From positions 1-49,977 of the forward strand of contig JACJNW010000015.1 in assembly GCA_014695195.1 (NCBI GenBank): a stretch of DNA of 49,977 nt, written 5' to 3'. The notes below the pieces were generated by a model, which had not been told where the DNA came from, made no database searches, and saw only the letters and a program-made list of their open reading frames with translations. The translations under genes and the position numbers were made by a program. The stretch is from Cyanobacteria bacterium FACHB-DQ100 (GTDB lineage Bacteria; Cyanobacteriota; Cyanobacteriia; Leptolyngbyales; Leptolyngbyaceae). This document shows positions 17,897-20,004 of the stretch, piece by piece (the first letter of the stretch is position 1; each line of letters opens with the position of its first letter).

Positions 17897-17940
17897 GTAG
17901 AAGTTTAGGAATTCTACAAATCGTAGTCTATAATACAGAT
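17897..17940 (+). promoter_or_regulatory. Promoter with -10 box inside an NtcA-type site
   Basis: TATAAT at 17929-17934 is a perfect -10 element, giving a predicted start near 17941. It lies within GTA-N8-TAC (17923-17936), the exact consensus for the nitrogen regulator NtcA. NtcA sites at this position act by repression, whereas activating sites are centred near -41. A second inverted repeat, GTAGAA-N9-TTCTAC (17897-17917), lies at about -24 to -44. A -35 hexamer is poor (TTTAGG at 19-bp spacing). Confidence 0.65.
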
Positions 17941-17945
17941 ATGAA

Positions 17946-18014
17946 CGTTCATCCTTGCTATGCGCTAATTGCTATGGGCCAAGGACGGAAGTAAGGGGTT
18001 CTCCTGAAGGAACG
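17946..18014 (+). promoter_or_regulatory. Glutamine riboswitch (glnA / Downstream-peptide class)
   Basis: The aptamer matches the glnA-type glutamine riboswitch as a three-way junction. P1 is CGTTC (17946-17950) with GAACG (18010-18014). P2 is TCCTTG (17952-17957) with CAAGGA (17980-17985). P3 is AGG (17994-17996) with CCT (18003-18005). The strongly conserved joining segments GGACGGAAGTA (17983-17993) and GAAGGAACG (18006-18014) are both present in the right order and spacing. These RNAs bind L-glutamine and control nitrogen-assimilation genes in cyanobacteria. The predicted RNA begins about 5 nt upstream. The class is recognised from memory of the consensus and was not scored with a covariance model. 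Confidence 0.85.
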
Positions 18015-18050
18015 CGCCTCAATCTCACTTCATTTCCATTGTTCGAGGCG
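18015..18050 (+). promoter_or_regulatory. Hairpin able to sequester the ribosome binding site of the DUF4278 gene
   Basis: CGCCTC (18015-18020), immediately 3' of riboswitch P1, pairs perfectly with GAGGCG (18045-18050). GAGG (18045-18048) is the likely Shine-Dalgarno of the ATG at 18055. The 24-nt loop is unstructured. This is a plausible expression platform acting on translation, but whether glutamine opens or closes it cannot be told from the sequence. Confidence 0.6.
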
Positions 18051-18054
18051 ACTT

Positions 18055-18438
18055 ATGAAACTCATTTATCGTGGTGTTAAATACGAATATGACCCCACTC
18101 AGCGCGGATGCGACGATCGCTTTTCTCAGTCCCATGAGCCGATCACGCTAACTTATCGCGGCAACCGCTACCAACTCGACCCGAATCGCCCTGTACGATC
18201 GGCAGTTGAACAACAACCACGTGAACTGATTTATCGCGGCAATCGCTACTGGATGGGCTATCCAGACGGTAAGCCGACGCTTAGCAATGTGAGACGATCG
18301 CAGCCAGCAAAAGATCTGCTTTCAACGCATCGTGCGAATTTGCAGCGAAATTTGCAGCGCCGCATCGAGAGTGCTCGTCAGAAGGGCGATGAGGCTTTAC
18401 TGGCACTGCTTGAAGCAGAACGTCGCCATCTCATCTAA
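18055..18438 (+). CDS. DUF4278 domain protein under glutamine-riboswitch control
   Basis: A 127-residue protein with three copies of the DUF4278 motif (L-x-Y-R-G-x-x-Y) at residues 3-10, 32-39 and 58-65. An Arg-rich, probably helical C-terminus follows (about 85-127, with RANLQRNLQRRIESARQKGD). It has no signal peptide, membrane segment or catalytic motif, so a small regulatory or binding protein is likely. The leader contains a glutamine riboswitch, an SD-sequestering hairpin and an NtcA-like site over the -10 box, which points to production under nitrogen sufficiency. The arrangement resembles gifB, encoding glutamine synthetase inactivating factor IF17, but I cannot align the C-terminus convincingly with known inactivating factors. 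A strong terminator follows, so it is monocistronic. Confidence 0.88.
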   Translation: MKLIYRGVKYEYDPTQRGCDDRFSQSHEPITLTYRGNRYQLDPNRPVRSAVEQQPRELIYRGNRYWMGYPDGKPTLSNVRRSQPAKDLLSTHRANLQRNLQRRIESARQKGDEALLALLEAERRHLI

Positions 18439-18465
18439 CTCAATTTCACTTACTCTTCACGCACA

Positions 18466-18490
18466 GAGCCGCGATCGCGGCTCTTTTTTT
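18466..18490 (+). terminator. Intrinsic terminator after DUF4278 gene
   Basis: A perfect 18-nt palindrome (GAGCCGCGATCGCGGCTC, 18466-18483), centred on the HIP1 octamer, is followed by seven Ts. Confidence 0.92.
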
Positions 18491-18596
18491 GCAAAAACGC
18501 ATTTTTTCAAATTCAGTCCGACTTTGGGCAATTGGGCAGAAACATATACGAGAATAGATCTATCCGAATGTCGATTTGCTCAGAGAGAAGAACACT

Positions 18597-18824
18597 GTGT
18601 CTCATACGATCGTTACAAACACTTGTGAAGGGGTTGCGGATTGCGTCGATGCCTGTCCGGTTGCCTGCATTCATGAAGGTCCTGGAAAAAATACCAAAGG
18701 AACAGACTGGTACTGGATTGATTTTTCGACCTGTATCGACTGCGGCATCTGCTTGCAAGTCTGTCCAGTTGAAGGCGCGATCGTGCCTGAAGAGCGTCCC
18801 GATCTGCAATCTACGCCGAATTAA
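18597..18824 (+). CDS. Bacterial-type ferredoxin with two Fe-S cluster sites
   Basis: A 75-residue low-potential ferredoxin for electron transfer in the cytoplasm. The second site is a canonical CIDCGICLQVCP. The first site is CEGVADCVDACPVAC: Cys-x5-Cys-x3-CysPro-x3-Cys. This matches the cyanobacterial ferredoxin represented by Synechocystis ssr3184 as I recall it. The GTG at 18597 (MSHTIVTNTCEG) is the family start, preceded by an AGAGAAG stretch. A terminator follows at 18850-18875. The sequence does not settle whether the first cluster is [4Fe-4S] or [3Fe-4S]. Confidence 0.9.
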   Translation: MSHTIVTNTCEGVADCVDACPVACIHEGPGKNTKGTDWYWIDFSTCIDCGICLQVCPVEGAIVPEERPDLQSTPN

Positions 18825-18875: not shown

Positions 18876-18930
18876 GTTGGCTTTATTTTGTTGTTAACAT
18901 GATTCCACGAATTCCAAGGAAGGATAAGTG

Positions 18931-20004
18931 ATGCTCGAATTGGCGACGACACTTCAGGGACAAACTATTCAAAATCGAGTGCGTGAAGTCGGAATTAATC
19001 CAAACCACTGGTATGCGGTGACTTGGGCAAAGGATCTCAAGCCCGGAAAGATTCTCCCGATTCGCATCTGGAATCAGTCGATCGCCCTGTACCGCGATTC
19101 CCAAAATCAAGTTCAAGCCGTCGAAAATGTCTGTCCGCATAAAGGTGTGGCGATGGACAAGGGCAAGGTGCAGGGCGATGCGATCGTTTGTGGCTATCAC
19201 GGGTGGGAATTTAACGGGCAGGGCGACTGTGTGGGCATTCCCTACTGGGGCGAAGGTCAAAAGCTCCCCTGTGCTCAAATGCGGAGCTACCCTGTGCAGG
19301 AAAGATACGGCTTGATTTGGCTGTTTCCGGGCGATCGTGCCTTTGCTCATTTAGCCTCGGTTCCAGAAATTCCCGAATACGATGATCCGAAGTGCTTTAT
19401 GGTGCCGATCGGGGCAGAGTTCAAAGCGCATTTTTCCATCTGTAACGAAAACACAATGGATGTGTTTCACGGTTATTTGCACCAGAATCTTCAAGGTTGG
19501 TTTGATCCGGTGCTGCTGAAACTGCGCGAGACCGATAAGGCTGTCACCGCAGAATATCAGGTGTCTTACAAAGGCATTTTGACCAAGTTTCTAGGGCTGA
19601 GCGAATCGGGCGGTGTCACCACAAAAATTATCTCCGTCGATTATCAGTATCCTAACTACATCAGCAAGCTCGAAGGTGTATCTGCTCTGTACCTAATGCG
19701 ATTACCGATTTCTGAAACAGAGAGTCGATCGTTTGCAATGTTATTTTTGCGATTACCGATTCCCGTTTGGTTGCTAAATGCGGTGCGTCGAGTATTGCAG
19801 CCTGTAGTCTTGCATTTACTTTTCTTGCCGTTCTTGCACCAGGATATTGAAATGATCGAAAGCGAACAAGAAAACTATCTCAGAAATCCGCAACGGCGCT
19901 ATGTCGAAGTCAATCCCGCGATTATTGCCGTTCAGCGTCTGATTGTGAAGCAGTACGATCGCTATCAGCAGACCCTTCAATCTTCTGAGATGATTTCCCG
20001 GTAG
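18931..20004 (+). CDS. Rieske-type aromatic ring-hydroxylating oxygenase
   Basis: A 357-residue Rieske non-haem iron oxygenase. The [2Fe-2S] ligands are in CPHKG (about residues 69-73) and CGYHGWEF (about 89-96). The mononuclear iron site is in NENTMDVFHGYLHQN, with two histidines. A hydrophobic stretch near the C-terminus (VLQPVVLHLLFLPFLH) suggests membrane association, as in the PaO/Lls1 group of chlorophyll-catabolic and related oxygenases. The substrate is unknown. AAGGA is suitably spaced from the ATG at 18931, and a GTG at 18928 is an overlapping alternative. The preceding ferredoxin, 106 bp upstream but beyond a terminator, could supply electrons, though this is only suggested by position. 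Confidence 0.87.
   Translation: MLELATTLQGQTIQNRVREVGINPNHWYAVTWAKDLKPGKILPIRIWNQSIALYRDSQNQVQAVENVCPHKGVAMDKGKVQGDAIVCGYHGWEFNGQGDCVGIPYWGEGQKLPCAQMRSYPVQERYGLIWLFPGDRAFAHLASVPEIPEYDDPKCFMVPIGAEFKAHFSICNENTMDVFHGYLHQNLQGWFDPVLLKLRETDKAVTAEYQVSYKGILTKFLGLSESGGVTTKIISVDYQYPNYISKLEGVSALYLMRLPISETESRSFAMLFLRLPIPVWLLNAVRRVLQPVVLHLLFLPFLHQDIEMIESEQENYLRNPQRRYVEVNPAIIAVQRLIVKQYDRYQQTLQSSEMISR

Follow-up and report, generated by a model that had tools for sequence, protein, structure and literature searches.

A glutamine riboswitch and an NtcA-type box in front of a DUF4278-PirA fusion gene in Cyanobacteria bacterium FACHB-DQ100, a probable two-input nitrogen-excess switch

Cyanobacterial glutamine aptamers are found mainly at DUF4278 genes, according to the sections consulted of a 2018 review (PMC6316151). 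In the same sections, the glutamine synthetase inhibitor IF17 (GifB) has DUF4278 as its N-terminal half, which adds stability and seems to improve inactivation. A glutamine riboswitch before a DUF4278 gene is therefore already published and not new, and the earlier note on this DNA was mistaken in presenting the pairing as a surprise. Outside the marine picocyanobacteria, the tested riboswitch target is IF17 in the literature searched. A second small regulator, PirA, accumulates after ammonium addition or under nitrogen excess. It binds PII only with ADP and counters the activation of NAGK, returning NAGK to arginine inhibition (PMC8092223, parts consulted). In the literature searched, PirA is governed by 2-oxoglutarate (via NtcA), ADP (via PII) and the sRNA NsiR4. 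N-terminally extended PirA proteins of Thermosynechococcus elongatus and Synechococcus JA-3-3Ab were called elusive and possibly false annotations (PMC8092223, same parts). No link between PirA and a glutamine riboswitch was found in the literature searched, which stopped short of Klahn et al. 2018 and Fig. S3 of PMC8092223.

The window analysed here is a stretch of 49,977 nucleotides, contig JACJNW010000015.1 of assembly GCA_014695195.1. The features of the locus are as follows.

17923-17936, plus strand: NtcA-type operator GTAN8TAC (GTAGTCTATAATAC), overlapping the -10 box (exact motif match)
17929-17934, plus strand: putative -10 box TATAAT (read from the sequence)
17944-18018, plus strand: glutamine riboswitch aptamer, glnA class, RF01739 (52.9 bits; pairing in 38 leaders)
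17946-17950, plus strand: 5' strand of P1, CGUUC, with its partner GAACG at 18010-18014 (invariant in 38 of 38 leaders)
18015-18020, plus strand: anti-Shine-Dalgarno strand CGCCUC, directly 3' of P1 (pairs with 18045-18050)
18045-18050, plus strand: GAGGCG, with GAGG as the likely Shine-Dalgarno sequence; masked by 18015-18020 (pairing analysis)
18055-18438, plus strand: DUF4278-PirA fusion gene, 127 aa (open reading frame, DUF4278 and PirA matches, purifying selection)
18055-18249, plus strand: DUF4278 domain, aa 1-65 (PF14105, 46.3 bits, cut-off 25.3)
18292-18426, plus strand: PirA domain, aa 80-124 (NF050139, 54.4 bits, cut-off 50)
18465-18484, plus strand: intrinsic-terminator-like hairpin followed by a T run (pattern match; 0.6 expected from shuffles)

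A cmscan of the whole window gave RF01739 (Glutamine) as the sole match at or above any family's gathering score, with an E value of 6.9e-9 and 52.9 bits against a gathering score of 35. Chance resemblance as the source of the match was ruled out by these values. The match spans the full model length with P1, P2 and P3 all formed. The scoring by covariance model that the earlier note had proposed thus bore out its reading of a glnA-class aptamer with three helices. In the genome (5.5 Mb, 99.92% complete), this is the single RF01739 match at E<=0.001. Judged by its sequence, the leader is a glutamine riboswitch of known class. By analogy with its relatives, glutamine would be the ligand that turns on the DUF4278-PirA gene.

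The ATG open reading frame begins 36 nt after the aptamer and encodes the 127-residue DUF4278 protein that had been predicted. Its ribosome-binding site and start codon, at the DUF4278 end, lie inside the riboswitch leader. The Arg-rich C-terminus, also described before, was confirmed and matches PirA. NF050139 was the sole NCBIfam match at E<=1 in the protein (E 8.6e-15), with a score modestly above the cut-off. Stand-alone PirA has ~50 aa, and the size expected of a plain PirA was exceeded; the protein was filed as a DUF4278-PirA fusion because it has 127 aa with DUF4278 in front. Among eight genus orthologues, dN/dS was 0.21 for DUF4278 and 0.13 for the PirA part (aa 86-127), with a looser linker; the figures are rough, as synonymous sites are near saturation. 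Both halves of the fusion are under purifying selection in these orthologues. The terminator-like hairpin suggests that the fusion gene is a single-gene unit. It separates the riboswitch unit from two downstream genes, which we take to encode a small 4Fe-4S ferredoxin (18576-18824) and a Rieske-type oxygenase (18928-20004).

RF01739 was searched in 386 genomes across the phylum, 72 of which had a match, and in 42 genomes of the window's family, 36 of which had one. Of the 187 distinct matches listed, 186 were examined; a weak match in G210 was excluded, and three matches that appeared twice (G000, G185, G289) entered the count once. The gathering score was reached at 167 sites, and 19 were under it. 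Laxer scans recovered riboswitches at G060 and G334 that the default filters had passed over, and all counts are thus lower bounds. The downstream genes were classed by local models built from sequences in the analysis. This gave 41 DUF4278-PirA sites, 50 DUF4278-IF7 sites, 34 sites with DUF4278 but neither tail (among them L270, with an IF7-like open reading frame further on), nine sites with an IF7>PirA pair, one with IF7 alone, and 51 with none of these, a class in which inspection by eye showed at least two IF7-like genes (L076, L077). No protein with both tails was called among the 186 sites.

The 41 DUF4278-PirA sites represent 40 distinct genes in 38 genomes, because two tandem aptamers in G414 (L261, L268) precede one fusion gene, a short DUF4278 gene intervening after the upstream aptamer. 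All but one of these sites reached the Rfam gathering score, and all 41 entries match both NF050139 and PF14105 at E<=0.001. Some riboswitch-led relatives score under the PirA cut-off of 50 (45.5 bits in G289, 47.7 in G286). In the window's family, the default search found a riboswitch-led DUF4278-PirA gene in 33 of 42 genomes; laxer filters brought in G060 as one more. Within the genus, all eight genomes searched had exactly one aptamer match, each leading DUF4278-PirA, so the leader is conserved at the orthologues, as the earlier reading had demanded.

The nine IF7>PirA pairs (G005, G056, G105, G109, G119, G143, G145, G151 and G187) span three taxonomic families by their labels, and they show this RNA class leading to PirA with no fusion involved. 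G170 and G215 each have a single PirA match at E<=1e-5, namely the fusion behind the riboswitch. These pairs, and the two genomes with the fusion as their only PirA match, may be taken as two independent supports for a PirA output. Conversely, the riboswitch is not essential to the protein: an aptamer was absent by search at 23 of 25 further long PirA frames outside the riboswitch set, hand-picked from the PirA match list (one locus, L219, holds just 130 nt upstream), and two carried one. The local DUF4278 model matched 24 of these 25 frames. A tree of 65 DUF4278-PirA proteins resolved little, with stars on 14 of 62 inner branches, and the riboswitch label was clustered on it, with 5 changes versus 19.1 in shuffles, which fits one or several gains.

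Several other arrangements behind glutamine riboswitches were observed in the survey. A conserved protein of ~70-80 aa, which on inspection by eye seems to span the membrane twice, stood directly behind the riboswitch at 18 sites in 18 genomes (L065, L086, L091 and L103, for example). The one member tested had no significant Pfam or NCBIfam match, and the cluster would seem to be a so far undescribed protein family controlled by glutamine. A second cluster of small proteins occupied 12 sites in 11 genomes (L067, L072 and L085, for example). The members shown have 78-110 aa, several with a 'YLERCW'-like motif, and are joined by BLAST to the protein of L041; again one member was tested, and no family match was found. 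A third cluster of ~60 aa (like 'FDFDLWATKVKRQLIAAL') was seen in five genomes, at L058, L088, L101, L102 and a site in G255. Proteins of 43-53 aa at L068, L092, L107 and L133 (G170 twice, G215 and G070) have one hydrophobic span and end in 'LCWVL' or similar. G170 has seven aptamer matches in total, including a tandem of three, spaced by ~300 nt and each followed by a short DUF4278 gene (L106, L108, L122; G170:C2:1065802-1067766). At L225 (G105:C1:446182-447996), the genes after a single riboswitch run IF7, PirA, short DUF4278, and then one more whose product has a PirA-like tail.

For the leader alignment, 38 of the 41 DUF4278-PirA sites were used; L234 and L235, with an ambiguous start, and L268 were excluded. 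Counted by alignment cells, P1 and P3 were paired to 100% and P2 to 89.1%. Both-sided changes were present in P2 and P3, and P1, being invariant, gives zero covariation information. Aptamer and downstream hairpin together had 96.6% of their cells paired, falling to at most 54.9% when the partners of the whole structure were slid by one to three columns. Their covariation score exceeded that of all 500 shuffles, which ignore relatedness.

The hairpin is formed by CGCCUC and GAGGCG, the latter ending four bases 5' of the ATG. This helix was 98.2% paired in the 38 leaders despite a variable loop, with both-sided changes at three of its six pairs (in 1, 2 and 1 sequences). A scan found no terminator-like site within the leader, and control by the leader is therefore probably translational. 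The hairpin adjoins P1 without overlap, and RNAfold accommodates the hairpin together with P1-P3 in one fold at -26.6 kcal/mol. The lowest-energy leader fold lacks P1 and is favoured by 0.8 kcal/mol, which shows no switch by itself. Unpairing of C18015 costs merely 2.2 kcal/mol (RNAfold). The base that follows P1 reportedly pairs inside the ligand-bound aptamer in its published structure. In the window's leader this base is presumably C18015, and such a pairing would cost the hairpin its first pair.

Upstream of the aptamer, transcription would be expected to start at about 17941-17943; a scan for sigma-70 consensus promoters found no promoter at the putative -10 box. The motif GTAN8TAC was searched in the 75 nt before each aptamer plus the aptamer's first 4 nt, and expectations were taken from shuffles (dinucleotide shuffles for the fusion sites). 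Exact copies were present at 38 of 41 DUF4278-PirA sites (0.84 expected), 35 of 50 DUF4278-IF7 sites (0.62 expected), 12 of 34 DUF4278-only sites (0.34 expected) and 13 of 51 sites of the class with none (0.82 expected). At the nine IF7>PirA sites, no exact copy was found in the stretch searched (0.02 expected). Repression by NtcA has been published for gifA, gifB and pirA (PMC6316151, PMC8092223; parts consulted). The box in the window lies over the -10 element, a position that fits repression by NtcA, and is a candidate site.

The FACHB-DQ100 genome also has a stand-alone PirA (G000:C35, 62.7 bits), so the fusion is not its sole PirA, and two more PirA-like stretches (49 bits, and 30.8 bits at G000:C32). 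At G000:C32, a 129-aa protein (L008, 1468-1857) carries a weak N-terminal PirA match of 30.6 bits, and its C-terminal part resembles, by eye, the protein behind the glutamine riboswitch in G308 (L041). Genes for PII and NAGK were both found. No second DUF4278 gene was detected, the one in the window being the only match at E<=1, and for this reason no IF17 was found in the genome. A stand-alone IF7 scored 66.5 bits against a cut-off of 70, and its locus gave no riboswitch match. As far as the searches show, then, a PirA-type output is the only one that this strain's glutamine switch has.

The aptamer, NtcA-type box, conserved hairpin and fusion protein were all computed here, as were selection and conservation, and the reading that we favour, with somewhat better than even confidence, is that the locus acts as a two-input switch which responds to nitrogen excess and controls a PII-directed regulator. 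When nitrogen is scarce and 2-oxoglutarate high, NtcA would sit on GTAN8TAC over the -10 element and block transcription. With ample nitrogen (low 2-oxoglutarate), the mRNA would be made and its leader would read glutamine. If glutamine were absent, CGCCUC would pair with GAGGCG and hide the ribosome-binding site. If glutamine were present, the aptamer would fold stably and engage C18015, the hairpin would weaken, and translation would start. What the protein then does can be predicted from its relatives. The PirA tail would bind PII in competition with NAGK, bringing arginine synthesis back under feedback inhibition, and DUF4278 would act as a stability or affinity module like the equivalent half of IF17. 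By this transfer from PirA and IF17 to the fusion, low 2-oxoglutarate together with high glutamine would likely lead to PII being held and arginine synthesis being throttled.

The alternative that survives best accepts PII binding and places the output elsewhere than NAGK: the fusion might compete with PipX or a transporter, or DUF4278 might bring PII to another target. The stand-alone PirA already in the genome leaves room for a specialised fusion, and DUF4278, under selection of its own (dN/dS 0.21), is a candidate for binding a separate partner. Against this, the tail has the core of an ordinary PirA. In the 41-row alignment, H92, N95, R103, A107, L115, L119, E120 and E122 are invariant and G111 is kept at 90% or more, and the core residues of the fusions are shared with the stand-alone PirA proteins examined. 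G170 and G215, with no other PirA match at the threshold used, also favour ordinary PirA duty. We therefore regard a non-NAGK output as rather unlikely, at roughly one chance in a handful.

Far less probable is that the gene is gifB and that its product inactivates glutamine synthetase in the manner of IF17, which is the published role of the riboswitch-led DUF4278 gene of Synechocystis. Leader class, NtcA-type box and N-terminal domain are all the same, the 50 DUF4278-IF7 sites (called by local models) show how often this RNA leads such genes, 35 of them with the exact box, and a 2024 paper took DUF4278 itself as the criterion for gifB (PMC11288750, in the part consulted). However, the IF7A model (NF052599) had no match in the window protein at E<=1 and none among the entries of the 41 relatives at E<=0.001. 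On this model, two DUF4278-IF7 relatives scored 95.2 (G027) and 19.9 bits (G298) against the cut-off of 70, so that it misses some such proteins. Neither of the two matched PirA, and a DUF4278-PirA relative, also from G027, reached 52.4 bits on PirA. The genome has in addition its separate stand-alone IF7, just under the cut-off. Of the two IF17/GifB parts, the N-terminal DUF4278 is present and the C-terminal IF7-like domain had no match at E<=1, and IF17/GifB identity was rejected on the IF7A test. The PirA C-terminus points instead to PII as the specific partner and argues against an IF17-type inhibitor. Of the earlier note's view, the riboswitch-controlled probable nitrogen regulator holds, and PII was among its guesses; the PirA nature of the C-terminus had escaped it, as had the published DUF4278 pairing.

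Equally improbable is a PirA-like tail that is a generic charged helix in a protein that binds neither glutamine synthetase nor PII. Speaking for it, the domain measures only about 40 aa, the PirA model also gives weak matches elsewhere (30.8 bits for G000:C32; six of 14 control genomes at E<=1), no solved structure matched the window protein at E<=10, and the best for PirA was a designed protein at E 1.6. Against it, the PirA match lies over a curated cut-off with E 8.6e-15, the tail shares 61% identity with the genome's stand-alone PirA over 36 aa, a profile of the 41 relatives aligns to that protein with an hhalign probability of 99.0, and IF7>PirA pairs stand behind the same riboswitch class. 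The PirA model had no match at E<=1e-5 in any of the 14 control genomes. A Pfam search with the C-terminal 54 aa alone gave weak matches only, all under the cut-off.

Returning to the two-input switch on a PII-directed fusion, a wider proposal, to which we give even odds, is that glutamine is a direct PII input. One riboswitch class would command IF7 (against glutamine synthetase) and PirA (against PII) as exchangeable inhibitor peptides, each fused to DUF4278 or combined as an IF7>PirA pair, and in lineages like the window's genus the switch would have been handed wholly from glutamine synthetase to PII and arginine control. The riboswitch class and both protein parts, DUF4278 and PirA, are known; what appears new against the literature searched is their combination behind a riboswitch, its family-wide conservation and the existence of IF7>PirA pairs as another way to a PirA output. 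Riboswitch-led PirA would link glutamine to the PII-arginine branch, and glutamine may act directly on PII signalling and arginine synthesis as well as on glutamine synthetase. DUF4278 alone appears unsafe as a criterion for gifB, contrary to its use in PMC11288750 (part consulted). The long frames also bear on the doubt over extended PirA as annotation errors (PMC8092223, parts consulted), because 24 of the 25 here match DUF4278 and would be fusions, and both halves are under purifying selection in the genus.

Four described systems come close to the locus, each compared here with the parts consulted of the source cited. The type 2 (downstream-peptide) glutamine riboswitches of marine picocyanobacteria likewise control a DUF4278 protein, but with another aptamer type and on short DUF4278 proteins for which no PirA tail is described (PMC6316151). 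The extended PirA proteins of PMC8092223 share an N-terminal extension with the window protein, and no riboswitch link is named for them there, Fig. S3 aside. Synechocystis sp. PCC 6803 pirA (Ssr0692) has the PirA domain and NtcA-type promoter boxes, and its accumulation under nitrogen excess is the behaviour predicted for the fusion (PMC8092223). Unlike the fusion, however, stand-alone PirA lacks DUF4278 along with its greater length, and Synechocystis pirA is controlled post-transcriptionally by the sRNA NsiR4 and not by a riboswitch (PMC9196836). The fourth system is gifB (IF17) of Synechocystis sp. PCC 6803, with an aptamer of the same class in its leader, an N-terminal DUF4278, an Arg-dependent C-terminal effector part and an NtcA-repressed promoter where the window has a candidate NtcA box (PMC6316151). 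The two differ in the effector tail, IF7 there and PirA here, and in the partner, which is glutamine synthetase for IF17 and is predicted to be PII for the fusion.
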